Assembly (NCBI GenBank): GCA_021404785.1
Contig: QWHH01000007.1
Span: 1 to 64,000 of the forward strand
Length of the DNA stretch: 64,000 bases
Origin: Lysobacterales bacterium PRO7
Lineage (GTDB): Bacteria; Pseudomonadota; Gammaproteobacteria; Xanthomonadales; Rhodanobacteraceae
Reading direction: 5' to 3'
The notes under the pieces were generated by a model that was not told where the DNA came from, did not search any database, and saw only the letters and a program-made list of their open reading frames with translations. The translations under genes were made by a program, and so were the position numbers. Below are positions 1 to 13,564 of the stretch, piece by piece. Every line of letters starts with the position of its first letter. Within the stretch, counting starts at the first letter, position 1.

Positions 1-1233
1 GCGCTTGGTGCGGTATGCCCAGCCGCCGACGATGAGCAGGCCGCTGAACAACAGCAGCATGTAAAGCAGGCGTGCACGCGCCTTTTGCGCATCGACGGTC
101 TGTTGCAGGGCCAGCAACTGGTTTTTTTCATTTGCCGCTTCGAGCTGGCGCTGCTTGTCGAGCACGCGCTGGTGCACGATCTGAAAAGCCAGGGCGCGTG
201 AGCTGACGTCGTTGAGATAGCCTTTGTCGGCGGCGGCGTATTTTTCATAGTAACCGAGCGCGTCTGCGGGATCGCCTAGCTGCCGGGCGATCTCGTAAAG
301 AATTTCGTAGGCCTTTGCAGCGGGCTCAGAATGCACCTGCTGGATGCCGAAGTCGATGGCGCTTTTGGCGAACTCGCGCGCCTTGTCGATATTGCCTTCG
401 CTCAGAAGGCAGCGTGCCTGCAAGACACGGAACCACGAGATCACTTCCGCATCGTGCGTGGCGAGCGCTTCGGCGTCGTGGGGCGCAAGCTGTCGCATGG
501 CCGGGGCGCAATCATCCGCGGTGATCAGCACCTGCGCCTGCTGGATGCGCAGCAAGCTGCCCCACACCGGGTCACCGATGCGCTGGCAGGCCTCGATGCC
601 GTCGCGGATCGACGGGTCGTCGGCACGCAGCTTGCCGGCACTGTTCAGGACCATTGCCTTGCGCGTGAGCACCATGCAGGTCTGACGCGCGCCATTTTCG
701 TAAGCAAGTGCTTCGTCGAGATAGTGCAGGGCAAGGTCGTACTGACCGGCGCCGTTGAACGCGCCTGCTGCCACCGTCAGCGTGGCGAAGTGCGCGTAGT
801 GGTCCTTGATCTGCGGCAGTGATTCGATCAATTGTTCGACGTTGGCATAGGCGTCGGAATAATGCAGTGCATTGACCTGGTTATCGACCATCGAGATTCG
901 CGCGCGCGCGCGCAGGGTCGTATCCTGGGTATGCGCCAGTATCGCCTCGAATGCCGATATGGCTTCGTCGTATCGGCCCGAGTAGCCAAGTTGCCAGGCC
1001 TGGAAGTAGTCAATCCAATCACGCTGCGACGGAGCGAGAGTGGACGCTTGCGCATCGAGCTGCCTGAGCAGCGCCTGGAATGCGGAATTGTCGCTGGTCT
1101 TGATGTCGTCGGCGCGGTGCAGCAGCTCGTCTGTCGTTTCGGCGTGGACGCAGCAGCACACGCACAGCAGGGCGACTGCCGCAAACAAGCGCCCGGCGAT
1201 TGCTGCCGGGCGCCTTATCGCTCCGATGGACAC
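1..1233 (-). CDS. TPR sensor protein, second copy, C-terminus beyond window
   Basis: Partial gene; the 3' end lies before base 1. It is a paralogue of the complete protein at 1663-3429: both have a signal-peptide-like start, helical repeat (TPR-like) sequence, a coiled stretch and one membrane segment. The membrane segment (LLYMLLLFSGLLIVGGWAY) and the RTKR that follows it are coded at the very edge of the window. By analogy a GGDEF domain should follow outside. A GTG start at 1231-1233 is chosen because the paralogue starts with the same GTG-TCC and both give an N-terminus leading into a hydrophobic core before Ala-Glu. The start lies 16 bases after the small Lys-rich gene, so the two are probably cotranscribed. 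Fold is well supported by the paralogue; activity cannot be judged here. Confidence 0.75.
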   Translation of the reverse strand, partial: MSIGAIRRPAAIAGRLFAAVALLCVCCCVHAETTDELLHRADDIKTSDNSAFQALLRQLDAQASTLAPSQRDWIDYFQAWQLGYSGRYDEAISAFEAILAHTQDTTLRARARISMVDNQVNALHYSDAYANVEQLIESLPQIKDHYAHFATLTVAAGAFNGAGQYDLALHYLDEALAYENGARQTCMVLTRKAMVLNSAGKLRADDPSIRDGIEACQRIGDPVWGSLLRIQQAQVLITADDCAPAMRQLAPHDAEALATHDAEVISWFRVLQARCLLSEGNIDKAREFAKSAIDFGIQQVHSEPAAKAYEILYEIARQLGDPADALGYYEKYAAADKGYLNDVSSRALAFQIVHQRVLDKQRQLEAANEKNQLLALQQTVDAQKARARLLYMLLLFSGLLIVGGWAYRTKR

Positions 1234-1249
1234 GAAGGGTATTACCCGC

Positions 1250-1525
1250 TCACTTGCGCTTGGCAGGTGCCTTCTTCGCAGGTTTTTTTGCCGGAGCCTT
1301 CTTGGCAGGCTTCTTCGCCGCCGGCTTGGGTGTGCGCTGGTTTGGCGAAAACATGACTTCACGTGCGCCGAGCAGGGCGGCCAGGGGCGTACCTTGCAGC
1401 ATGGCATCGCGCAGGACTTGTTCAACGTCGTTCGTGCGCATCGCATGCAACAACTGCTCGCGAGTGGCGTGGCGCAGCGCGGCATTGCGGCCGACATTTT
1501 CCAGAAAACCGATTGCGTTCGACAT
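1250..1525 (-). CDS. Small SonA/Nif11-like protein with PAKK tail (copy B), candidate borosin precursor
   Basis: 91 residues. Residues 1-54 look like a compact helical domain: MSNAIGFLE, then GRNAALRHA, then LLHAM and a second Leu/Ala-rich helix ending LAALLGAR. This resembles the borosin-binding/Nif11-like leader regions of small Xanthomonadales peptides that I recall, which also run FLE...GR...ALL...LLGGR before a short core. Residues 55-66 (REVMFSPNQRTP) occupy the core position. Residues 67-91 are PAKK repeats of histone-H1 type. The ATG at 1523-1525 is preceded by AAGGGGAAC and aligns with copy A; longer upstream reading is rejected. It sits between the two TPR sensor genes, downstream of the SonM-like methyltransferase. 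Alternative: a DNA-binding H1/AlgP-like protein. The small gene is solid; the precursor role is inference. Confidence 0.8.
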   Translation of the reverse strand: MSNAIGFLENVGRNAALRHATREQLLHAMRTNDVEQVLRDAMLQGTPLAALLGAREVMFSPNQRTPKPAAKKPAKKAPAKKPAKKAPAKRK

Positions 1526-1662
1526 GAGTTCCCCTTGCTGGTGAGTTGGCGAAGTACGCGATTCCAACCGCATGCATGACCTACGAGCGGGACCGCCCGT
1601 CGATAGTGCAACAAACCTGACTCGCGGGCAATGCGCAAGGGATACGCTAACGGCCGCAGCCA

Positions 1663-3429
1663 TCAGGCGCCGGAAGCGGCCTTGGGCTGATGCCGCACCA
1701 CGCGGTTGCGTCCGGCATGCTTGGCCGCGTACATGGCGTTGTCGGCTGCCGCAATCAGGGTCGTGAGGTTGTAGCCGCAGGCGCGGGTCGCGGCGACGCC
1801 GAAGCTGGCCGTGACCAGCACATCCGAGAGCGGATCGTAGCGCTGGATGCCGGCGATCGCCTTGCGCATTTCCTCGGCGCGCTGGCTGGCCGGCATCTCG
1901 GTGCAGTCGGGCAGCAGGATGGCGAATTCCTCGCCGCCAAGGCGGCCGAAAATATCAACCGAACGCAATCGTTCCTGGCAGGCGGCGACGACGCGGCGCA
2001 AGGCGGCATCGCCGGCGGCGTGGCCGTGCATGTCGTTGACTGCCTTGAAATGGTCCAGGTCGATGACGATCAGGCAGGCCTCGCGCGAGGACTTGGCGCT
2101 GTAGCGCAAGGCGTCCTGCGCGGCCTCGAAGAAATGCTGGCGATTGAAGATGCCGGTCAGGCCGTCGCGCCGCGCCAGACGCTGGAACTTGAGCTGCGAG
2201 CGCTTGGTGCGGTAGGCCCAACCGCCGACGATGACCAATCCACTGAGCAGCAGCGCGATGTAGAGCAGGCGCGTTTGCGCCTTCTGCGAATCGACTTGCT
2301 GGCGCAGGGCCAGCACCTGGTTTTTCTCGTTCGCCGCTTCGAGCTGGCGCTGGTTGTCGAGCACGCGCTGGTGCACCATCTGGTAGGCCATTGCGCGCGC
2401 GCTGAGGTCGTTCGCATAGCCGGTCTTGGCGACGTCGTACTTTTCGTGGAAGGCCAGCGCGGCAGCATCGTCGCCCTGGCGCTTGGCGATCTGGTAAAGC
2501 ATGTCGTAGGTATCGGCCGTGAACTTGGGATACCCCTGCCTGGGGCCGAGATCGATGGCGCTTTGCGCGTACTCGCGGGCGTGCGCGAGGTCGCCGGTCA
2601 GCAGGGCGGCGCGCGCCATCAAGGTACGGAACTGGCCGATCGCCGCGGGATAATGTGTCGCGAGTTCCTGTGCATCGCCGGCCTTGAGCAAACTCAAGGC
2701 CTTGCCGGGCTGGCCACCGTCCATCAGCGCGCTGGCCTGCCAACCGAGGATGATATTGCCCCACAACGGTTCGCCGATGCGCTGGCACGCCTGTATCCCG
2801 CTGCCGATGGCGGGATCGTTTGCCGCCAGCTTGCCGAGTTTGTAAAGCGCCTCCACTTTCATCGACATCGCCTTGCACGCGGCGGCGGGGTCGGCGGAAT
2901 CATTCAGCCACAGGTCGGCGTAGTGGATGGCGAGGTCGTATTGTCCGGCCTGGTCATAGAGCAGGGCTGCGACGCCATAGCCAGTATCGCGCGCCAGTGC
3001 GTCCTGAACATGCGGCAGGACGTCGAGGAGCGTGCTCAGGTTCGAATAGGCGTCTACGTATTGCGCCGCCAGCGCCTGCGCATTGATCAGGGTGCTAAGG
3101 GCGCGGGTGCGGACGGTCGCATCCTGCGTACGGTCGATAACCGCCTGCAAGGCAGTCCCGGCCGCGTCGAAATTGCCCGTATAGGTCGACTGCCAACCCT
3201 TGAGGTAATCCAGGAAGTCGTGTTGCGCCGGCGTCAGGCGATCCGCTTGCGTGTCGGCCTGCTTGAGCAGCGCCTGGAATTGCGTGTTGTTCGCGGTCTT
3301 GATGTCGTCCGCGTGCTTGAGCAATGTGCCGGGATCTTCGCCGGCTGCGGAAGCGCAGGCGCCGGCCAGCAGCAGGATTGCCGCAAACAAATGCATGGCC
3401 AGTAGCGCTGGGCGCAAGCTGCAGGACAC
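1663..3429 (-). CDS. Periplasmic TPR sensor diguanylate cyclase
   Basis: 588 residues from a GTG at 3427-3429. Residues 1-28 are a signal sequence ending ACASA, so the N-terminal half is periplasmic. About residues 40-340 are TPR-like helical repeats, followed by a Gln-rich coiled stretch and a membrane segment at 388-406. The GGDEF domain occupies about 417-575. The active-site motif is GGEEF at 498-502 with the inhibitory RxxD (RSVD, 489-492) five residues upstream, so both cyclase activity and product feedback are expected. It would make cyclic di-GMP in the cytoplasm in response to a periplasmic signal. The start is 26 bases after the small Lys-rich gene copy A and the arrangement is repeated in the next gene pair. 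The upstream ATG in the same frame overlaps the small gene and is rejected. Confidence 0.9.
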   Translation of the reverse strand: MSCSLRPALLAMHLFAAILLLAGACASAAGEDPGTLLKHADDIKTANNTQFQALLKQADTQADRLTPAQHDFLDYLKGWQSTYTGNFDAAGTALQAVIDRTQDATVRTRALSTLINAQALAAQYVDAYSNLSTLLDVLPHVQDALARDTGYGVAALLYDQAGQYDLAIHYADLWLNDSADPAAACKAMSMKVEALYKLGKLAANDPAIGSGIQACQRIGEPLWGNIILGWQASALMDGGQPGKALSLLKAGDAQELATHYPAAIGQFRTLMARAALLTGDLAHAREYAQSAIDLGPRQGYPKFTADTYDMLYQIAKRQGDDAAALAFHEKYDVAKTGYANDLSARAMAYQMVHQRVLDNQRQLEAANEKNQVLALRQQVDSQKAQTRLLYIALLLSGLVIVGGWAYRTKRSQLKFQRLARRDGLTGIFNRQHFFEAAQDALRYSAKSSREACLIVIDLDHFKAVNDMHGHAAGDAALRRVVAACQERLRSVDIFGRLGGEEFAILLPDCTEMPASQRAEEMRKAIAGIQRYDPLSDVLVTASFGVAATRACGYNLTTLIAAADNAMYAAKHAGRNRVVRHQPKAASGA

Positions 3430-3455
3430 GGCCAAGATCCGGATCCCGAAGCGGA

Positions 3456-3725
3456 CTAGGACTTCTTGCGTTTGGCGGGAGTCTTTTTGACGGGTGCCTT
3501 CTTCGCCGGCTTCTTCTTCGGCGGCGCCTTGGCGGGTTTCTTCTTCGCCGGTTTTTTTTTCGGCGGTTTCACGGACAACACGGCGCAATACATCTTTTCC
3601 CGAGGCGAGATGACCGTATCGGCAGCGGATTCTTGCTGCATCAGCCGCAGCAACTCGGCCCGGTTTGCGTGCCGCATCGCGGCGTTGCTTCCGGCCTGTT
3701 CCAGAAACCGGACGATGTTGCTCAT
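3456..3725 (-). CDS. Small SonA/Nif11-like protein with PAKK tail (copy A), candidate borosin precursor
   Basis: 89 residues, starting at the ATG 3723-3725 behind AGGGGAAA. The N-terminus MSNIVRFLEQAGSNAAMRHA matches copy B closely (MSN..FLE..G.NAA.RHA.R..LL..M). The domain is shorter than in B: after LLRLMQQ it reaches the putative core directly, REKMYCAVLSV at 42-52, a hydrophobic run of the kind N-methylated in borosins. Residues 53-89 are Pro/Lys/Ala repeats, strongly basic. It is the gene immediately downstream of the SonM-like methyltransferase, separated by 262 non-coding bases with no strong terminator that I can see. In split borosins the substrate is a separate small protein next to the methyltransferase, which is the arrangement here. 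A nucleoid-binding role for the tail is possible and not exclusive. Confidence 0.8.
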   Translation of the reverse strand: MSNIVRFLEQAGSNAAMRHANRAELLRLMQQESAADTVISPREKMYCAVLSVKPPKKKPAKKKPAKAPPKKKPAKKAPVKKTPAKRKKS

Positions 3726-3987
3726 GGTTTTTCCCCTATTTGATTGGTATGCAACGTCGCGCCATTCCGGTCGCCGCGGAATCCTGACACATCGGCGGAT
3801 TTTCGTGCCGCCGAGCTGCGAAGCGTCCCTGCGAAAACCTGTTGCGTCGCAGAGCCTGCCTGCCGCTGTGTTGGCACGCCGATATTGCACCCAAACCGCG
3901 CTGGCGCGCAATTGGAAAAATGCCACCTCGATCAGGGCGCTCAGCGCCTCGCGCGCAAACGCAGGCGCGGTGTGAGGATCACGGTTT

Positions 3988-4806
3988 TTACGGCCCCAGC
4001 TTTTCCAGCCGGCGCAGCATTTTCGTATCCGGCACAAGTTTGCGCACCGGCGGAATCACCACCGTATCCGCCACTTCGATGTCGATTTTGGAAAGACGGC
4101 GCAACGCGATGCGGTCGATCCGCGGCGTGTCGATCGGCAAGGTCGCGGCGCGATACACGATAATGCGGTGCGTGAGCGGATAATCCTGCGCCAGCCGCTC
4201 GATCAGGATTTCACGATACGCGGCATTCGTTGCTGCGTGAGCGCTGCCGCGCCCGCCATCGCCCATTGCGCCGACCTGCCACAGGATCAGGTACGCGCTG
4301 GTGTCGATGCGACGTTTGTAATAGAGCAACTGGCTGGCTTCGTAATGCTGGCAGCCGGCCGCACCGGGGTCGATGCCCAGATCCGAGTAAAGGCAATCCT
4401 CGGCGGAAATCCCCGGTTCCATGTTTGCATCGAATCCTTCCTTGCGCGCAATGCGGATCGCTTCGTGCGGTGCCCACGCGAATACACCCGGATGGCCGTA
4501 GAACGCTGCGCAGACTTTTTTCCCGGCGCGAACCTCGGTCAGCATCGCGTTCACCATCTGGCGATACGTTTGTTTGCGCGATTTGTCCGCAGCGTAAAGC
4601 GGCTGCAGGCTGCGCACATCGGGATGCAGCGACTCGATCCATTTTTCGACGATGCCATCCGACGCAGCCAGGAACACCACATCGGATTGCTCGATGTGGC
4701 TGCGTGCCAGCGGGGTCAGGTGCGAGCCGAGCGTGATGCCGATACCGATGCAGGCGAGGGTGCCGTAGCTGGGTGCTGATCGGTTGTTATGTGCGGTTGG
4801 TGGCAT
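3988..4806 (-). CDS. SonM-like borosin alpha-N-methyltransferase (TP-methylase fold)
   Basis: 272 residues from the ATG at 4804-4806; a GTG two codons upstream is the alternative. It has the tetrapyrrole-methylase fold: a GIGIT loop near residues 21-25, GHPGVF at 104-109 and EPGIS at 130-134. The pattern is specific for the borosin branch as I remember SonM of Shewanella oneidensis and the OphMA methyltransferase: a Tyr (Y71), then Arg (R77) and TYxQM (Y81), then YGHPGVF, EPGISAEDCLYSDLGIDPG, the H-YEASQLL motif and VIPP-KL near the end. Cobalamin or sirohaem TP-methylases do not carry these. The family iteratively methylates backbone amides of a peptide with SAM. There is no fused peptide at its C-terminus, so a separate substrate is expected; the two small proteins downstream fit. 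No cobalamin genes are nearby. Confidence 0.85.
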   Translation of the reverse strand: MPPTAHNNRSAPSYGTLACIGIGITLGSHLTPLARSHIEQSDVVFLAASDGIVEKWIESLHPDVRSLQPLYAADKSRKQTYRQMVNAMLTEVRAGKKVCAAFYGHPGVFAWAPHEAIRIARKEGFDANMEPGISAEDCLYSDLGIDPGAAGCQHYEASQLLYYKRRIDTSAYLILWQVGAMGDGGRGSAHAATNAAYREILIERLAQDYPLTHRIIVYRAATLPIDTPRIDRIALRRLSKIDIEVADTVVIPPVRKLVPDTKMLRRLEKLGP

Positions 4807-4887
4807 GGGCACGTTCGTTGGCGCGTCATGGTGCAGGGTACACCCAAGCGCGCCAAACCCATCCTTGAGAACGATTCAATCCCATTC

Positions 4888-4916
4888 TTGAAACCTACGA
4901 CCGTGGATGCTAGTGT
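4888..4916 (+). promoter_or_regulatory. Possible sigma-70 promoter of the BNR protein gene
   Basis: TTGAAA at 4888-4893, 17 bases, TAGTGT at 4911-4916. It lies in the 260-base divergent gap between the methyltransferase and the secreted beta-propeller gene. Only sequence resemblance supports it. Confidence 0.3.
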
Positions 4917-4969
4917 GCGCGGCGGAATTCGCGTCTCGTTTTCCGGGGATTTGTGTCTGGGGATTGTGT

Positions 4970-4997
4970 CCGCTCGTTCACGAGCGGGCGAGTTTTT
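4970..4997 (+). terminator. Terminator-like hairpin in the leader of the BNR protein gene
   Basis: Stem CCGCTCG (4970-4976), loop TTCA, stem CGAGCGG (4981-4987), followed by GCGAGTTTTT. It lies 70 bases upstream of the next start codon and downstream of the possible promoter, so it could attenuate transcription of that gene instead of ending another. Confidence 0.45.
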
Positions 4998-5066
4998 CCA
5001 TTCCGGTGGTCGGCACGGTGGTGCCGGGCGCCGGTGACACTGTTGCCACCCCGCGGAGACAAAATC

Positions 5067-7640
5067 ATGAAGAAGAGTTTGGCGATGCCCTTGGCCTTGC
5101 TGGCCGTCGCTTGCCTGCCTGCATGGGCATTGCAATTCCCGAAAGTGGATGATGAGGCTGCGGACACCAACGCGGCGCGCCAAGCGTATTTCGAAATGCG
5201 CCGGATCAATCCCTACAATTCGAACTTCGATGCCGCCGCTGCACGGCTGGCCGCCTACAACAAGTTCCGCGCCGATCTGGCCGCAGAAAAAACCAATCCG
5301 AAGATCATGGCCGTACTGGCCAACCAGTATCACTCGGAAGTCTGGCAAGGCATCGGTCCTGCGCCGATCTTCAACGGCCAGACGCCGACCAGCGCAACGG
5401 CCGCCAGCCGCTCCAATGTCTCCGGCCGCGTCAACGCGATCGCCATCGATGGCATTGACAGTGCCGTTTACATTGGCGGTGCCCAGGGCGGCGTGTGGAA
5501 GTCGGTGAACCATGGCGCCACCTGGACGCCCATCACGGATTACCTGGGTTCCCTGGCAATCGGCTCCATCACGATCGCGCCCGGCGCCCATCCACTGAAT
5601 CAGGCGACGATTTACGTCGGCACCGGCGAGGGCAATTACAGCGGCGACTCATACGCCGGCGCCGGCATTTACAAGTCCACCGATTCGGGCCACACATGGG
5701 CACCGGTCGGCCAGAACTCGCTGTTCACCGGACGCGCTGTCCCCGCCATTGCCGTCGATAGCACCAATTCCCAAGTCGTGTTGGCTGGTACAGCCACGGC
5801 GTATGCCGGCGTCGGTGGAGAAATCCCACCCAATGCACCGCAACGCGCCATGTATCGCTCGACGGACGGCGGCAACACCTGGACACGCGTCCTACCTACA
5901 ACGACGGCCACGCTTCGCATCTCGCGCATCGTGCAGGATCCGAATCCGGCCCTGCAGACCGCGGGCAGCACGCGCTTCTGGGCCGCCACTTCTCCTGTCA
6001 ACAACGGCGATGGCGCGCTGTATGTGTCCAATGATTCTGGCGTGACCTGGACGCGCGTCGACGGCACGGGCGGACTGCCGACCGTCAATCCGAACGGCGC
6101 CCTGGTCCGCACCTGGATTACGGCGACCTACGCCGGCGGCAATACCGTGCTGTACTACGGCACGAGCCAGGCCAACGGTACCTTGTACAAATCTCTCGAT
6201 GGCGGCACGACGTGGACGCAGGTAGCGGCGGCGACCGGTTTTTGTCAGGGTCAGTGCTTCTACGACATGCCGGTCTATGTCGAGCCCGGCACGACGAACG
6301 TCTACACGGGCGGCGCAGGGGATTCGGGATCGGTACCCAGTTCCTTCATGCTTTCGACCGATGGTGGTACGACGTTCACGGATGAGATGGTCGCTGTGGA
6401 CGGCAATTCGGCCCTGCACGCGGACGTCCACGACATCACGACCTGGCCGGGCAGCCCGAACGAGGTCTGGGTGGGCAACGATGGCGGCGTGTTCTATTCG
6501 ACCGATCGCGGCCAGCACTGGGTGAACGCGAACACCAACCTTGCCCTCACCCAGTTCCAGTATTGCGACCTGCATCCGACCGATCCGAACCAGGCCTATG
6601 GTGGTACCCAGGACAACGGCACCGACAGCTTCCTCGGCAACATCGGGGCGCTGCCCGGCGCCACGGCGTGGATGCACAGCGACGATGGTGACGGCGGGTT
6701 CGCCCTGATCGATCAGTCCGCGCCGCAGAACGTCACCCATACCTACTTCAACCAGCCGAACTACCTCACCGGTGCAGCGCTGGCCACCAACGGCCCGGCT
6801 TCGCAGCCCGCGGATTACGGCTATTTCGCTGGCGAAATCCCGGGCTACATCACCTCGGGGATGAATCCGGCCGACAACGTGTTGTTCTACGCACCGATGG
6901 CCCTGGATCGCGGCAATCCGACCACCTTGTACTTCGGCACGCAGTCCCTGTACATCGCCAACGACTACTTCAACCAGGTCGTCACCCAGGAAAACGCGCT
7001 GACCGGATCGCCGCCCTATACGGTGAACATCTTCAGTCAGCTCGGTGCCAGTACCAATTTCGGCGCGGCCATGCCGCCCTTGGCGGGCGGTGGTGTCATC
7101 AGTGCGATCACGACGGTGCCGAACATCCTGCCCAACACCAATGCCACGACGATCTTCGTCGGCACCAGCAATGGCAATGTGTGGCGCTCGACCGACTCGG
7201 GAGCGACGTTCTCCAGCGTCGATTCTGCGGTCGGTGCTTACGTGTCGCAGATTGCCGTATATCCGCGCAATCCCAACATCGTCGTGCAGGTACGCGCGGG
7301 ATTCACCGGCGGATTACCGGCGCAAAACGTGCGCATTTCCACCGATGGCGGCACGACCTGGAACACCGCATCGAACGGCTTGCCGGACATTCCGGTGAAT
7401 TCCGTGGTGTGGGACCCGGTTTTCCCTGGCCAGTTGTGGGCAGGCACGGATGTGGGTGTCTACCTGTCTCCCGACGAAGGCGCGACCTGGTATCCGTACA
7501 ACAACGGCATGCCCAATGTCGCGGTGTTCTCGCTGACCGGCAATCGCGACACGCACACCGTGCTGGCATGCACGCACGGCCGCGGTGCGTTCCGCCTGAA
7601 CCTCGACGCAATCTTCATCGACGGCTTCGACGGCAACTGA
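5067..7640 (+). CDS. Secreted BNR/VPS10-like beta-propeller protein with IF-x-DGF tail
   Basis: 857 residues. The ATG at 5067 follows GCGGAGAC and gives a clean signal peptide cut after PAWA; the longer frame is rejected. From about residue 110 onward the sequence contains many Asp-box (BNR) turns of the type S-x-D-G-G-x-T-W (KSTDSGHTW, RSTDGGNTWTRV, KSLDGGTTWTQ, RISTDGGTTWN), as in sortilin-like and exo-sialidase-like propellers. No sialidase Arg triad or hydrolase signature was recognised, so the role is probably binding or adhesion outside the cell. The protein ends LDAIFIDGFDGN; the IF-x-DGF motif also occurs in the next gene. It is a single-gene unit with its own terminator downstream. 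Confidence 0.88.
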   Translation: MKKSLAMPLALLAVACLPAWALQFPKVDDEAADTNAARQAYFEMRRINPYNSNFDAAAARLAAYNKFRADLAAEKTNPKIMAVLANQYHSEVWQGIGPAPIFNGQTPTSATAASRSNVSGRVNAIAIDGIDSAVYIGGAQGGVWKSVNHGATWTPITDYLGSLAIGSITIAPGAHPLNQATIYVGTGEGNYSGDSYAGAGIYKSTDSGHTWAPVGQNSLFTGRAVPAIAVDSTNSQVVLAGTATAYAGVGGEIPPNAPQRAMYRSTDGGNTWTRVLPTTTATLRISRIVQDPNPALQTAGSTRFWAATSPVNNGDGALYVSNDSGVTWTRVDGTGGLPTVNPNGALVRTWITATYAGGNTVLYYGTSQANGTLYKSLDGGTTWTQVAAATGFCQGQCFYDMPVYVEPGTTNVYTGGAGDSGSVPSSFMLSTDGGTTFTDEMVAVDGNSALHADVHDITTWPGSPNEVWVGNDGGVFYSTDRGQHWVNANTNLALTQFQYCDLHPTDPNQAYGGTQDNGTDSFLGNIGALPGATAWMHSDDGDGGFALIDQSAPQNVTHTYFNQPNYLTGAALATNGPASQPADYGYFAGEIPGYITSGMNPADNVLFYAPMALDRGNPTTLYFGTQSLYIANDYFNQVVTQENALTGSPPYTVNIFSQLGASTNFGAAMPPLAGGGVISAITTVPNILPNTNATTIFVGTSNGNVWRSTDSGATFSSVDSAVGAYVSQIAVYPRNPNIVVQVRAGFTGGLPAQNVRISTDGGTTWNTASNGLPDIPVNSVVWDPVFPGQLWAGTDVGVYLSPDEGATWYPYNNGMPNVAVFSLTGNRDTHTVLACTHGRGAFRLNLDAIFIDGFDGN

Positions 7641-7660
7641 TCGATCGCATTTCGATCGAC

Positions 7661-7694
7661 GCCCGCGCCAGGTACGGCGCGGGCGTTTCTTTTT
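7661..7694 (+). terminator. Rho-independent terminator after the BNR protein gene
   Basis: Stem GCCCGCGCC (7661-7669), loop AGGTAC, stem GGCGCGGGC (7676-7684), then GTTTCTTTTT. It begins 21 bases after the stop codon. Confidence 0.85.
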
Positions 7695-7957
7695 GTGCAT
7701 CATGCGTGTGTACAAGCCCGCTTGGCGGCTGCACAGGCGGATGAAACAAACACTGCCGAGCGTATAAAAAACCCATAATTGTGCCCCCTGTCCGGGCGTG
7801 CTAAATCTGCGCCCGGTTTTGTCGTGGGGATGCTGTCACTGGGGTGCCGTGGACGCTGGGGTTCGCGGTACGAATTTCGAGATTCCTCGTCGTGGTTTCT
7901 TGCGCGCGTCCGCCCTGCGCAGGGCCGGCGCGTTCATTTTCTTGTGGAGAGTCAGGC
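7695..7957 (+). promoter_or_regulatory. Leader of the subtilase gene with terminator-like hairpin
   Basis: No gene here. An A+T-rich patch around 7761-7780 (TATAAAAAACCCATAAT) is the likely promoter area. A hairpin follows: CCGGGCG (7792-7798), an 11-base loop, CGCCCGG (7810-7816), then TTTTG. The remaining leader of about 140 bases is G+C-rich and contains another potential stem around 7905-7945. The layout resembles the leader of the preceding gene. Confidence 0.4.
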
Positions 7958-10900
7958 ATGAAGGTCAATCGGACGTTTCGCAATCACCGCATGTTGACGC
8001 TGGCCGGCGCCATCGCCATCACCTTGTGTTCCGGCGCGTCGGCGAGCCCGCCGAATTCGGCGCTCGCATTGTGGCGTAACGCGCCTGCCATCGGTGCGGG
8101 TGTCGTCATCGACGGTTCGATCGGCAAGAACATCGCCCTGAACATGCAGCACGGCGAGCGCGCCCGCTATACGGTGATCCTGAAGGAAGAGCCGGTTGCC
8201 ACTTATGACGGACGCACGTCTGGCTTCGCGAAAATTCCGTTGGTCAATGGCCGCTTGAATACGAAATCCACCGAGGCGGCAAAGTACGTCAGTTATCTGC
8301 AGGCACGGCAGAACAAATTCCTCAGCGATGCGGGCACGCAGATCAAGCGTCCGCTCGGTGCGATCATGCAGTTCCAGCACGCCGTCAACGGCGTGGTTGT
8401 CGAGCTGACCAGCGCCGAGGCCGCCAAGATCGCCGCGCGCGACGACGTGTTGCTGGTCGATATCGAAAAAATGCTGCCGTTGATGACCGATCGCAGCCCG
8501 ATCTTCATCGGCGCCGACAAGATCTGGGACGGCAGCGCCACGGGTGGCTTCGCCACGCAAGGCGAAGGCATCGTCATCGGCGATATCGATACCGGCATCA
8601 ACTACGACAGCCCGTCGTTCGCAGGGGTCGGCCCGTTGGACGGTTACCAACACGTCAACCCGCTTGGCGCAGGGAACTACCTGGGCCTGTGCCAATCCGG
8701 CGGCTTCGATGAAGGTCATTGCAACGACAAACTTATCGGACTGTACAATTTCGTCTACAGCGTTTGCAGCGGCGCAGGCAATCCCTGCGGCGCCCCCGGC
8801 ACGTGGAACGTCGGGCAGGGCGCGCTCGATGTCAACGGGCATGGATCGCACACCACGAGCACGGCCGGCGGTAACCACGCAACAATCGACTACAGCGGCG
8901 GCAACTTCACCATTCAGGGCGTGGCGCCGCACGCCTCGTTGATCGAATACACGGTCTGCTACACGGTGGTCAGCACTGGCCAGGGTTCGTGCCCGAGTAC
9001 GTCCACCACGGCTGCGGCCAACCAGGCAGTTGCCGATGGCATCGTCGACGTTCTCACCTTCTCCATCGGCGGTGGCACCTCGCCGTGGACCGACAGCACC
9101 TCGATGGCTTTCCTCGGCGCGCAGAACGCCGGCATCTTTGTCGTCGCCGCGGCCGGCAACGATGGTCCCGCCGCCTCGACGGTGAGCCATGTCGAACCCT
9201 GGGTGGCCACCGCCGCCGCGTCTACCGACGATCAGGTCTTCGGCTACACGTTCAACCTCAACGGCCCTGGCACGCCGCCGGGCAATACCGTCGGTCTGCC
9301 GGTGCGCCCGGGCGCGAATCCGCAGCCGACGGGCGACCTGGTGAATCTGCCGATCACGCAGAGCCCCGGTTTTGCCAACGGCAACAATGATGGCTGCACC
9401 GCTTTTGCCAGCGCGCACACGTTCGACCGCGACCAGAGCGCTGACCGTATCTTTGCCGACGGGTTCGAAACCACGCCGACCCCGCCGCCCTACCAGAAAG
9501 GCATTGCCGTGCTGCATCTGGATGCCAGCAACAGTGGCTGCGGCAGCGTGACACGCCGCGGCAATGCGCTGAATGCGGGCGCCGCCGGCGTGATCTTCGT
9601 CGACAGCGCCTACATCAACCTGGGCGCGTCCGACACCTCGTATTCGATGATCTTCTCGGACTGGAACAACGTCTATGCGCAGATCATCGGCGATCCGGCC
9701 AATGCCACCGCGTCGGTGCTGCTGCCGCTGAAGGCCTATTTCACGGCGCAGGGCGACGTCATCGCCAACTTCAGCTCGCGCGGTCCGGCTGCCGGCATCG
9801 GCGGTCAGGCCATCGTCAAGCCTGAAATCGCCGCACCGGGCGTCGGCATCCTTGCTGCTTATATGGGCGCTCCCGGAGCCGCCGCGGTAGAGGACGGCAC
9901 TTCGATGGCCACGCCGCACATTGCCGGTTCTGCGGCGTTGCTGCGCGCGCTGCATCCGACTTGGTCGCCGACGCAGATCCGTTCGGCGATGATGATGACC
10001 GCCAAGACTGCGGGCGTGGTCAATCAGGATGGATCGCCCGCCGGCATCTGGGATACCGGCAGCGGTCGCATCGACCTGCCGAGTGCGGCCAAGGCCAGCT
10101 TGTTGTTCGATGAAACCGGCGCAAACTTCCTGGCTGCCAATCCGGCTTTGGGCGGCAAGATATCCACGCTCAACCTGCCCAGCATTGCCGACAGCAACTG
10201 CGTCGGTCCGTGTACGTACACGCGCACGGTGCGCGGCGTCCATGCCGGTGCCGTCACCTACGCATTGAGCATCAACGGTTTTCCCGCAGGCGCCGCGTCA
10301 GTGGCTCCGGCGAGCCTGCTGATGCCGACCGGTGGCACCAAGACCTTCACCGTGACCGTCAGCGGAGACCAGTTGACTTCGGGCCAGTACACCCAGGGCC
10401 AGGTGACGTTCACGCCCAGCGACCCGAGTCTTCCGGTGCAACACATGCCGGTTGCGGTCAAGCCGGGCGGACCTGCGATCCAGGTCGCTCCGTCCGCGGT
10501 CTCCGCTTCAGCAGCCTTTGGCGGCAGTGCCGTGACGCAGCCGTTGACCGTGACGAACATCGGCAATCCCACGCTCAACTGGACTGTCGGGACCGGTAAT
10601 GCGCCGATCACCGTGATGAATACGGCTACCACCGGCAACGGTGAGTTGGGCGGTTATTACAACAAGATCCCGGCCAGCAGCTATCTGGCCCAGAACTTCG
10701 ATGTCTCCATGCCGACGCGAATCACCAAGCTGACCGCAAACGGGTTCCGCCTGCCGAGCGGCAGCCTGACGACAGCGAACACTCCGGCCATTACGTTCAA
10801 GGTCTACGCGGATGCCAGCGGCGTCCCTGCCGGCACCGTGGGCGATCCGCCGACGGTCAATATCGGCACGCCGCCGCTGTTCGATTACACGAACTCGATC

Positions 10901-13564
10901 GGCACCGCCAATGGCATCACCGCGACGAACGGCGTCATCAACCTCGACCTGACCAAAGCCGGCGTTCCAGTGCTGAATCTGGCTGCCGGTCGTTATTGGC
11001 TGGTGGTCGCACCGAACATCAATTCGAATGCGGGCAATACGGCTTCGGATCCGCTGTGGGCATGGCGCGTGAGTTCGGATCCGGTCATCGGCAACAGCGC
11101 ACAGATCATTGGCTCACTGTGGGGCATCACCGCCTGGGAGGATGTCGAAGCCACGCCGACCATGCTGTCGAGCATCGTCGCCGGCACGGTCGGCTGCACC
11201 CAGCCGTCGTGGGTCAGCTACGTGCCGAACAGCGGCGCCTTGGGCTACAACGGCGTAAGCAACGTCACCGTCACGTTCGATCCGACCGGCCTGTTCGCGG
11301 GCAGTTATGGCGGCACGCTTTGCATCACCAGCAATGCGACGAACACGCCCACGGTGGTGACCGGACTGACGTTCACGGTAACCGGCACGCCGCCGACTGC
11401 GCCGACGCTAGGCGCCGCGTTCTCGCCCGGCAGCATTGTCACCGGCGGCAGCAGTGCGTTGACGCTGACCTTGAGCAACTCGAACACGCTGCCAGCCGTT
11501 CTCAGCGCCGACTTCACCGACGCGCTGCCCACCGGCCTGGTCGCCAGCAACGCGGCGACGACTTGCATTGGCGGGGCAGGTGCCAGCCTCGGCAGTGGCG
11601 GCAGTTCGTTGATCCTGGGCAATGGCGCCGCGATCCCGGCGGGTGGATCGTGCACGCTGACCGCGGACGTGACTTCTTCCGCAGCGGGCAACTACACCAA
11701 CGCGATCCCGGCCGGCGCACTGCAAACCAACGCAGGCAACGCGGCAGCGACCTCGGCAGGGCTGACCGTTACCGGCATCAGTGCTCCGACCGTGGCCAAG
11801 AGTTTTGCCCCGGCCAGCATCACGACCGGCGCGGCCAGCACGCTGACCATCACGCTGTCCAACAACAATCCGGCCGTGGCTACGCTATCGTCTGACCTCA
11901 CCGATACCTTCCCGAGCGGCATGGTGCTGACCGGCACACCGGCTGCGGCGACTACCTGCACGGGCGGCAGTGGCGTGTCCACGACCAGCGGTTCGATCAC
12001 GCTGGGCCAGAACGCCACGATTCCGGCGAACGGATCGTGCACGGTAAGCGTCAACGTCACTTCCGCCAGTCCGGGCAGCTACGCCAACCAGATCGACGTC
12101 GGTGCGCTGGTGACGAATTTTGGCAGCAATACGGCGGCGGCGAACGACACGCTGACGGCAGTGGCGCCGGATCTGTACCGGCTGTACAGCAACCTCGGCA
12201 CGGATGCGGGCAGCGATCTGCTCAACGGCAGCACCACGGTCGTCGGCACGAGTCGCTACACGCCCATGGTGTGCAGCCGGCTGACCCTGGCTCAACCCGG
12301 ACAGCAGTTGATCACGAGCTTCACCTGGTCTTCGACGAATCACAACGCGGCTGCAGTTACACCGACCACCGGAATCACGTTCTACGACGATTCCGGTGCC
12401 AGCGGCGGGCCGGGCGTTCGCCTTGGCAACACCAACGGCTTGTACTATTCCGGCGGCAATTACGGCACCACGCTCAATCCGGGAACCAACTACTTCACCG
12501 GCAATCCGTTCGGATACACGGCGACGTACGTGCCCGCGCCGAGCGGCGGCGGCAACGCGAATGTCTGGGCCTGCCTGTATTACTACGGCGCCTCGGCAAC
12601 GTTCACGGATACGCAGTTGTCGAATCTGGGCATGGAGAAATTCACGAACGCGCCGACCGTCGGTTCCACCACCGACCTTGCGTTCATCTCCACGGGCGCA
12701 CCGAACGGCGGCAGCGGCGTCTGGATCGATAATCCTCCGGGCAATCTCGTTGCCGGCACGGGTGCCGCGAACGTCTTCGCCTGGGAGCTGACGACCCTGG
12801 GCACCAACATCATGCTCGACACCTACCAGATGAAGAACGCCAGCGGCACCGCGGCGACTGGTGCCATCGCCCTCAACAGCGCAACCGGTGTTGCCCGCAA
12901 CTTCACCGGCTATGCCGCCACGATCACGGCGCCGGCAGGCGGCAACAAGTGGAGCGTGACCGGCTTGCAGTTGACGCCATTGTGCAACGCGATAAAGACA
13001 TTCAACGCGGTGCAGGCCAAGATCCAGTTCTGGGATACGTTCGCAGGTTCGACCGCCACGCCGGTGTTCTCCAACTCCGCGCCGATCGCCTCGGTCACCG
13101 CCAATTTGGACCTGGTGACTGCAAATGGCTGCGCCACTGCCACCAGCTACTACATCCTGCCGGTGCGTCTGGATACGCCGGTGGCGGTCGGTGCGGGTTC
13201 GACGCTTGGTGTCACGATCGAATACCTGACCGATACGGGTTCGGGTCTCGGCGCCAATGCCGATCTGGTTTCCCTCACCAATTCGGCGAGCGCTGGTTTC
13301 GCGCCGGCCGTCGGCGCCAATGCTTCCACCGGCGCGACCGGCTGGTACAAGAGCGCCAGCAATCGCGGCGACCTCAACTTCGAGAATGGCGATTACGTGA
13401 CGGGTACGCGCGTGCACATACCGGTGCGTGTCTACGGCAACCAGGTTTCAGCTACGGGCAGTATCGTGCCTATGGCGAGGGAGTTGACGTCGCAGAGCCC
13501 GCAGCAGCAAACGGAAGTGGAATCACCGATGCAGAACGGCCCGCTTTCGCTCGAAAAACAGTAA
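7958..13564 (+). CDS. Large secreted subtilisin-like serine protease (S8) with PA insertion and C-terminal repeats
   Basis: 1868 residues. The ATG at 7958 follows GGAGAGTC and starts a signal peptide (cut near GASAS). An inhibitor-I9 propeptide spans about 65-195. The catalytic triad is visible: Asp211 in DIDTGI, His295 in GHGSH, Ser649 in DGTSMATPH. A PA-type domain is inserted between His and Ser (about 395-590); inside it lies IFADGFE (498-504) followed by a Thr/Pro linker. After the catalytic domain come a fibronectin-III-like segment, a jelly-roll-like region, two tandem DUF11-like repeats (about 1148-1270 and 1276-1395, each with FSPGSI or FAPASI and a Cys pair) and further beta-rich sequence. 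It probably digests protein outside the cell after type II export. The very long C-terminal half may mediate attachment. Confidence 0.93.
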   Translation: MKVNRTFRNHRMLTLAGAIAITLCSGASASPPNSALALWRNAPAIGAGVVIDGSIGKNIALNMQHGERARYTVILKEEPVATYDGRTSGFAKIPLVNGRLNTKSTEAAKYVSYLQARQNKFLSDAGTQIKRPLGAIMQFQHAVNGVVVELTSAEAAKIAARDDVLLVDIEKMLPLMTDRSPIFIGADKIWDGSATGGFATQGEGIVIGDIDTGINYDSPSFAGVGPLDGYQHVNPLGAGNYLGLCQSGGFDEGHCNDKLIGLYNFVYSVCSGAGNPCGAPGTWNVGQGALDVNGHGSHTTSTAGGNHATIDYSGGNFTIQGVAPHASLIEYTVCYTVVSTGQGSCPSTSTTAAANQAVADGIVDVLTFSIGGGTSPWTDSTSMAFLGAQNAGIFVVAAAGNDGPAASTVSHVEPWVATAAASTDDQVFGYTFNLNGPGTPPGNTVGLPVRPGANPQPTGDLVNLPITQSPGFANGNNDGCTAFASAHTFDRDQSADRIFADGFETTPTPPPYQKGIAVLHLDASNSGCGSVTRRGNALNAGAAGVIFVDSAYINLGASDTSYSMIFSDWNNVYAQIIGDPANATASVLLPLKAYFTAQGDVIANFSSRGPAAGIGGQAIVKPEIAAPGVGILAAYMGAPGAAAVEDGTSMATPHIAGSAALLRALHPTWSPTQIRSAMMMTAKTAGVVNQDGSPAGIWDTGSGRIDLPSAAKASLLFDETGANFLAANPALGGKISTLNLPSIADSNCVGPCTYTRTVRGVHAGAVTYALSINGFPAGAASVAPASLLMPTGGTKTFTVTVSGDQLTSGQYTQGQVTFTPSDPSLPVQHMPVAVKPGGPAIQVAPSAVSASAAFGGSAVTQPLTVTNIGNPTLNWTVGTGNAPITVMNTATTGNGELGGYYNKIPASSYLAQNFDVSMPTRITKLTANGFRLPSGSLTTANTPAITFKVYADASGVPAGTVGDPPTVNIGTPPLFDYTNSIGTANGITATNGVINLDLTKAGVPVLNLAAGRYWLVVAPNINSNAGNTASDPLWAWRVSSDPVIGNSAQIIGSLWGITAWEDVEATPTMLSSIVAGTVGCTQPSWVSYVPNSGALGYNGVSNVTVTFDPTGLFAGSYGGTLCITSNATNTPTVVTGLTFTVTGTPPTAPTLGAAFSPGSIVTGGSSALTLTLSNSNTLPAVLSADFTDALPTGLVASNAATTCIGGAGASLGSGGSSLILGNGAAIPAGGSCTLTADVTSSAAGNYTNAIPAGALQTNAGNAAATSAGLTVTGISAPTVAKSFAPASITTGAASTLTITLSNNNPAVATLSSDLTDTFPSGMVLTGTPAAATTCTGGSGVSTTSGSITLGQNATIPANGSCTVSVNVTSASPGSYANQIDVGALVTNFGSNTAAANDTLTAVAPDLYRLYSNLGTDAGSDLLNGSTTVVGTSRYTPMVCSRLTLAQPGQQLITSFTWSSTNHNAAAVTPTTGITFYDDSGASGGPGVRLGNTNGLYYSGGNYGTTLNPGTNYFTGNPFGYTATYVPAPSGGGNANVWACLYYYGASATFTDTQLSNLGMEKFTNAPTVGSTTDLAFISTGAPNGGSGVWIDNPPGNLVAGTGAANVFAWELTTLGTNIMLDTYQMKNASGTAATGAIALNSATGVARNFTGYAATITAPAGGNKWSVTGLQLTPLCNAIKTFNAVQAKIQFWDTFAGSTATPVFSNSAPIASVTANLDLVTANGCATATSYYILPVRLDTPVAVGAGSTLGVTIEYLTDTGSGLGANADLVSLTNSASAGFAPAVGANASTGATGWYKSASNRGDLNFENGDYVTGTRVHIPVRVYGNQVSATGSIVPMARELTSQSPQQQTEVESPMQNGPLSLEKQ

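Follow-up and report, generated by a model that had tools for sequence, protein, structure and literature searches.

The closest described system to the one considered here is SonM/SonA of Shewanella oneidensis, a split borosin of type IV, for which the available passages of PMC8429565 place the 'borosin binding domain' (BBD) of the small protein SonA at residues 1–53, and report the examination by mutation of residues Y58, R67, Y71 and Y93 in the methyltransferase SonM. In the passages covered, the borosin papers assign bacterial split borosins no biological role. Here, we describe a locus at the start of contig C3 (QWHH01000007.1) in the 2.8-Mb genome of Lysobacterales bacterium PRO7 (GCA_021404785.1); the stretch analysed, hereafter 'the window', is the first 64,000 nucleotides of that contig. 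Judged by homology, the locus belongs to the split-borosin class, which is a known and widespread kind, and an earlier note on this DNA, which had proposed as much, is supported by a SonM-like enzyme, a precursor leader whose profile finds SonA, and strong co-occurrence between genomes. We further lean towards reading the locus, from its gene order and relatives, as a split-borosin 'peptide–receptor cassette', in which the precursor peptides would be paired with membrane sensors encoded beside them.

The locus and its methyltransferase

In the first 4.8 kb of the window, the minus-strand order is methyltransferase, GNAT remnant, precursor A, GGDEF gene 1, precursor B and GGDEF gene 2 (handles beginning with L and G denote loci and genomes, respectively):

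3988–4806, minus strand: SonM-like α-N-methyltransferase, 272 amino acids (aa) from ATG, catalytic Tyr/Arg kept; the frame opens at GTG 4812
3831–3974, minus strand: remnant of a GNAT acetyltransferase, about 280 nucleotides (nt) missing relative to L002, frame changed; in frame with A
3456–3725, minus strand: precursor A, 89 aa; short BBD-type leader (residues 1–42), core and Lys-rich tail (53–89)
3570–3596, minus strand: putative core of A, KMYCAVLSV, residues 44–52, placed by family alignment
1663–3396, minus strand: 577-aa membrane diguanylate cyclase (cyclase 1), with a TPR-like ectodomain between a signal-like N terminus and a single transmembrane (TM) segment, then GGDEF
1702–2172, minus strand: GGDEF domain of cyclase 1, residues 409–565
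1250–1525, minus strand: precursor B, 91 aa; full-length BBD-type leader (1–55), weak core and Lys-rich tail
1337–1360, minus strand: putative core position of B, EVMFSPNQ, residues 56–63, without Cys
1–1233, minus strand: second membrane diguanylate cyclase (cyclase 2), of which the window covers only the sensor part; its uncertain start was placed by eye at about GTG 1233, and its GGDEF part would fall past the contig end

The earlier note had listed two small-protein genes of 89 and 91 residues downstream on the same strand, which is accurate; the two are not adjacent, as GGDEF gene 1 stands between them.

A phmmer search of the PDB gives SonM as the best solved relative of the methyltransferase (E 5e-71), with OphMA-type enzymes next (about 1e-46 to 1e-43) and a precorrin-2 enzyme at 7e-4. 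Pfam assigns the fold family TP_methylase only; of the NCBIfam models YabN is best (1e-10), those for precorrin enzymes reach no better than 4e-4, and each falls far short of its cut-off. On these values we rejected a cobalamin/siroheme TP-methylase, and the profile search that the earlier note had suggested as a check therefore groups the enzyme with SonM/OphMA. In an alignment, window residues Y71, R77, Y81 and Y103 equal SonM Y58, R67, Y71 and Y93, and all four are identical in 81/81 aligned methyltransferases (the window's included), so that the borosin pattern first recognised through Y71 and R77 was correctly read, as was the absence of a fused core. A single copy of the methyltransferase was found in the genome, with a ratio of non-synonymous to synonymous substitution (dN/dS) of 0.10 against the relative G218, calculated over a partial sequence.

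Precursors A and B

In a PDB search with an 85-row profile, made up of A, B and 83 relatives, the seven best matches are all SonA chains (6e-6 to 2e-5; named by their depositors as SonA or LigA-domain protein) and the next match falls to 0.17. The part matched, profile positions 1–58, takes in the SonA BBD and part of its linker, and homology between the leader of the precursor family and this domain is thereby supported. The FLE..G.NAA.RHA motif, which the earlier note had picked out as common to A and B, is present in both and belongs to this leader; a Shine-Dalgarno-like AGGGGAA precedes the ATG of each gene. Following the leader is a short hydrophobic stretch, with a Cys within eight residues of the leader in 78/98 relatives. 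Of the two cores put forward earlier, KMYCAVLSV of A fits the family pattern, but EVMFSPNQ of B fits it poorly.

Measured against G218, dN/dS is 0.28 for A (0.09 in the tail, its most constrained part, and 0.57 in the leader) and 0.24 for B; these values rest on few synonymous sites, and indicate that A and B are both translated and have been retained.

Both A and B end in a long Lys/Pro/Ala-rich tail. Across the family a charged tail follows the core, acidic in 90/98 relatives and positive in 8/98, the strongly positive ones belonging to close relatives of the window (L003, L004, L005 and L008) and to one Steroidobacter (L054). In the latter precursor (L054 9414–9842), an acidic stretch gives way to a very long Lys-rich tail, seemingly a second and independent instance. 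It is through their tails that A and B make weak NCBIfam matches to the Rv3852 family (17 and 20 bits, where the cut-off is 100), which might suggest nucleoid-type, Lys-rich proteins unconnected to the methyltransferase; we consider this extremely improbable and rejected it, as the leader is of SonA type, its profile finding SonA itself, and most homologues carry acidic tails at the same place.

A sensor-cyclase gene follows the precursor

We fetched 80 loci by their methyltransferase alone, and 75 contain a recognised precursor. The closest named relatives of the window among them are Rhodanobacter and Dyella, which makes Rhodanobacteraceae its probable family. Of the five loci without a recognised precursor, four end less than 500 nt from the methyltransferase, and L018 holds a divergent precursor seen only in the first scan. 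The 99 precursors in these loci are directly followed by a cyclase gene in 88 cases and by another precursor in 10, with one lying at a contig end (75 nt away); the sensor domain begins 52–234 nt after the precursor stop. In the family layout the methyltransferase comes first, GNAT is often next, and the precursor precedes a protein with a hydrophobic N-terminal segment, TPR-like ectodomain, membrane segment and GGDEF domain, in that order. When called genes within 7.5 kb were crudely clustered, no other gene family was present in more than 12 loci.

The GG[DE]EF motif is intact in 83/83 full-length cyclases, and the I-site in 72/83; cyclase 1 of the window has an intact GGEEF and I-site. An N-terminal hydrophobic segment together with a TM segment before the GGDEF domain is present in 69/83 (by hydrophobicity only), and the sensor ectodomain is predicted to be periplasmic. 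Two ectodomain cysteines, C174 and C204 in cyclase 1, are invariant in 55/55 aligned cyclases, which suits a periplasmic disulfide. Most cores also have a Cys, and a thiol link between core and ectodomain is conceivable. TPR models of Pfam match 14/55 cyclases at best (TPR_12), and the TPR proteins found with the sensor profile, which include RapF (E 4e-4), score weakly. The window's genome has two such sensors, both at this locus; the duplicated substrates of the earlier note are indeed present in two copies, but the unit that has been duplicated is the precursor-plus-receptor pair, rather than the substrate alone.

Co-occurrence across genomes

Presence of the enzyme and of the sensor was then scored across the window's own family (234 genomes, that of the window among them), with a sensor query that left out the GGDEF domain. 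The methyltransferase is present in 163 and the sensor in 161, with both in 160, the enzyme only in 3, the sensor only in 1 and neither in 70 (Fisher p about 8e-55, with kinship ignored; this makes the p-values far too small, and it is the counts that carry the message). The sensor-only genome, G081, is 86% complete and has a precursor directly before its cyclase, so that the assembly may simply lack the enzyme. Homologues of B at E 1e-3, a weak query that misses diverged precursors, occur in 96 family genomes, and 96/96 also carry both enzyme and sensor, which answers favourably the co-occurrence check that the earlier note had set. Its remark that such a system would be new in this lineage was too strong, given an enzyme in 163/234 family genomes and split borosins that are already published (PMC8429565, as far as its available passages go).

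In a class-wide sample of 369 genomes (methyltransferase at 1e-30; sensor profile at 1e-12, with at most five candidates scored per genome), the enzyme is present in 9, and the sensor in 4, all of them within those 9 and none among the other 360.

One sensor, two kinds of output

Seven genomes of the class sample carry the enzyme outside the window's family, and the sensor is found in two, G581 and G521. Here, a SonA-like, tail-less precursor (matching SonA directly, at 6e-4 and 1e-10) is followed by a protein that combines TPR with HisKA, HATPase and receiver domains; G521 additionally encodes a TPR-GGDEF protein after the methyltransferase. Searching the families of these two genomes by methyltransferase only, at 1e-40, gave 37 distinct loci among the matches listed. 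In 36/37 the same sensor is encoded no more than 1.5 kb from the methyltransferase, and on the same strand in 35/36, with the qualification that these 37 loci also served to iterate the sensor model and that two of them were known because of the sensor. The nearest output in the 36 loci is a histidine kinase in 13 and a GGDEF domain in 23, and their 26 precursors stand before a kinase (11), a cyclase (13) or another precursor (2). On inspection, precursors before kinases are short and tail-less, and those before cyclases tailed; the Cys pair is present in 28/29 GGDEF-type but in only 5/15 kinase-type sensors. That one sensor is coupled to GGDEF in some loci and to a hybrid histidine kinase in others is what would be expected of a receptor with an exchangeable output. 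In one further locus (L220 6057–6182), a weak BBD-type match (4e-6) continues in frame, as judged by eye, into a response-regulator-like receiver domain.

These observations bear on a plainer explanation, namely that the locus makes an ordinary split-borosin natural product acting outside the cell (as an antibiotic, in metal binding or otherwise), with the cyclase switching the operon or a biofilm without sensing the peptide. The evidence from enzyme and leader serves this explanation equally well, the Cys of 78/98 cores could bind metal, and the legend to a figure of borosin architectures mentions a GGDEF domain (PMC11395268, from the portion available). A general regulator, however, need not follow every precursor, be duplicated along with it, or be nearly limited to genomes with borosin genes; nor does this account explain the swapping of outputs on a conserved sensor. 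We regard it as unlikely.

Covariation of core and sensor

A peptide–receptor pair predicts that core and sensor should covary, and this was assessed by Mantel tests on 69 loci, taking one precursor–cyclase pair per locus and a 13-residue core. Given methyltransferase, cyclase domain and leader, the partial correlation of core with sensor is 0.285 (0/999 permutations), set against −0.07 for core with methyltransferase and 0.00 for core with leader; the variation of the core follows that of the sensor, rather than that of the methyltransferase or leader. Partial Mantel tests are lenient. Charge complementarity between tail and sensor was rejected, as tail charge against sensor charge is not significant (Spearman p 0.50, Mann-Whitney p 0.07).

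The GNAT gene and candidate maturation genes

In 48/75 loci a GNAT gene is found no further than 400 nt from the methyltransferase, and it was assigned to Pfam Acetyltransf_3 in 3/3 tested. In 4/30 GNAT–precursor neighbours of the 80 loci, the two share one stop-free frame (L003 8801–9628, L004 3306–4136, L005 1103–1990, and L008), all four being close to the window by methyltransferase identity; the shared frame recurs in the same-genus loci L142, L145, L147 and L148, and is absent in L144 and L150. The stop codon of GNAT seems to have been lost in the shared-frame loci. We do not claim a GNAT–precursor fusion protein, since the precursor retains its own ATG (with a ribosome site in L003 and L004). 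Among the nearest relatives, contig C21 of G217 (L141 1–3179) is 99.8% identical to window positions 122–3300, and L002, apparently also of G217, shows about 85% identity across the methyltransferase and 96–98% at both ends; the G217 assembly may mix strains.

A pepsin-like protease of family A1 directly precedes GNAT–methyltransferase–precursor in 12 of the 80 loci, one of them a Shewanella (L047 1010–2419 and L070 5626–7206, together with L038, L046, L050, L051, L052, L061, L063, L064, L066 and L072); such a protease is also present in 7/36 of the further loci. The one tested, from L047, matches Pfam Asp; a cyclase follows in 11/12, with L063 ending first. Where present, the protease is a candidate maturation enzyme; the available passages on bacterial pepsin homologues assign them no role (PMC2761423). 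Genes for an ABC-type ATPase and permease, recognised by eye, lie 5–6 kb upstream of the methyltransferase in 9 loci each (for example, L010 3434–4471 and L055 5000–5761); their recurrence may be mere synteny among close relatives.

That neither a protease nor an exporter family recurs in a majority of loci would suit another alternative, in which the precursor is kept whole and acts as an N-methylated small protein that regulates the cyclase or the membrane, with the charged tail as its functional part. Consistent with this, the tail is under far tighter constraint than the leader in A, and is charged in all 98 relatives measured. Its sign, however, reverses between lineages in which the sensor is conserved, tail-less SonA-like precursors pair with the same type of sensor, and the ectodomain is predicted to be periplasmic. 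We consider this alternative improbable.

Neighbouring genes and site scans

Divergent from the locus, at window positions 5067–13561, are genes for a BNR/Sortilin-like repeat protein and for a large subtilase (Peptidase_S8) with DUF7933. Pattern scans of window positions 1–5100 found 1 promoter-like site, against 1.2 expected by chance, and 12 terminator-like sites, against 6.2 expected, of which 11/12 lie on the plus strand; neither result was used. A defence system was considered and rejected, with no PADLOC match for four window proteins.

Evidence against a peptide–receptor pairing

Several observations weigh against a peptide–receptor cassette. The core also correlates with the cyclase domain (0.169, 0/999 permutations), and the leader with the sensor (0.50), from which it follows that shared history of neighbouring genes accounts for part of the signal. 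The three enzyme-only genomes of the family (G031, G036 and G040) carry diverged enzymes (about 1e-63), and 5/9 enzyme-positive genomes of the class sample (G274, G362, G385, G508 and G553) have neither the sensor nor a recognised precursor; these five, together with L226, the sole locus of the further 37 without a sensor, mean that the pairing is not universal for SonM-like enzymes. A different GGDEF protein and a different histidine kinase flank L226 on the opposite strand (2566–10014). The 37 loci were themselves drawn from the families to which G581 and G521, both sensor-positive, belong, and a precursor was recognised in 23/37 and not in 14/37. In the window, cyclase 1 has no significant Pfam TPR match (0.08), and neither A nor B, as a single query, found a credible SonA match in the PDB. 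As for maturation and export, the pepsin-like protease is confined to 12/80 loci, no relative of it was found in the window's own genome (in a search made without a positive control), and gene clustering revealed no exporter family recurring in most loci.

The remaining objections concern the state of the locus in this strain. Compared with the intact gene of L002, the window's GNAT is missing about 280 nt and has its start out of frame; the leader of A is about 13 residues shorter than that of B; and the core of B is without the usual Cys. These are the grounds for supposing that the locus is decaying here, with its GNAT broken, the A leader too short to dock and the B core lost, and works only in relatives. 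A leader of the same short kind, however, is also present in G218 and G215, such that the G218 one at least has probably been inherited and kept; both cyclase genes are retained; and dN/dS is well below 1 for methyltransferase, A and B, the selection on these coding sequences arguing against simple decay. Whilst we think decay unlikely, reduced function may follow from the same features: A (through its short leader) and B (through its weak core) may each be partly impaired, and the GNAT step is lost in this strain.

A proposed model and its implications

Synthesising the above, we return to the peptide–receptor cassette and sketch how it might operate. By analogy with SonM/SonA, the leader, like that of SonA, would dock on the methyltransferase dimer, whereupon the hydrophobic core would be N-methylated at backbone amides in the N-to-C direction. 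We suggest that the core is subsequently cleaved and reaches the periplasm, where the TPR ectodomain of the neighbouring cyclase, going by its predicted topology and linkage, would bind it and thereby alter synthesis of cyclic di-GMP (c-di-GMP); A and B would then represent two peptide 'channels' served by one methyltransferase. More broadly, it is possible, though we put it forward tentatively, that gammaproteobacterial split borosins with BBD-type precursors are peptide signals, each precursor having its own membrane receptor that would recognise the N-methylated core through a conserved periplasmic TPR domain, the output (diguanylate cyclase or hybrid histidine kinase) being exchanged in evolution, and with GNAT and sometimes a pepsin-like protease acting in maturation.

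With a receptor-like gene linked to almost all recognised precursors, a concrete role for bacterial split borosins can be proposed. If the model is correct, N-methylated ribosomal peptides would serve as stable signals into c-di-GMP or phosphorelay pathways, and the loci would provide natural peptide–receptor pairs for engineering, as well as a possible job for bacterial pepsin homologues.

Comparison with known systems

The window shares with SonM/SonA (PMC8429565, in the passages available) a separate methyltransferase of about 263–272 aa with the same catalytic residues, and, encoded next to that enzyme, a small precursor whose BBD leader runs to about 55 residues. It differs in that SonA (71 aa) ends in its core, whereas the window precursors carry a long Lys-rich tail after it, and in having two precursors, each followed by a TPR-GGDEF gene. 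A likeness also exists to split borosins of types V–X (Imani et al. and Cho et al., as described in the portions available of PMC11285071 and PMC11395268), which comprise bacterial split enzymes with varied precursor architectures. In the literature as searched (in part-texts), no paper contained both 'borosin' and 'diguanylate', PMC11395268 alone combined 'borosin' with 'GGDEF', and a receptor pairing with swapped outputs was not found; the papers defining types V–X fall outside that search. The protease of the 12 loci is likened, by family only, to the bacterial pepsin homologues of family A1, or shewasins (PMC2761423 and PMC4814920, in part), and unlike those loci the window's genome yielded no such homologue.

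In its presumed mode of sensing, the locus recalls the RRNPP receptors (Rap, arbitrium AimR), where a TPR protein lies beside a small peptide gene, as does the presumed peptide sensor here, and RapF appears among the weak matches of the sensor profile. RRNPP receptors are cytoplasmic, and the TPR region of the window sensor type is instead predicted to be periplasmic, and linked through the membrane to a GGDEF domain or histidine kinase; we would therefore describe it as potentially working like an RRNPP receptor, rather than as a member of that group.

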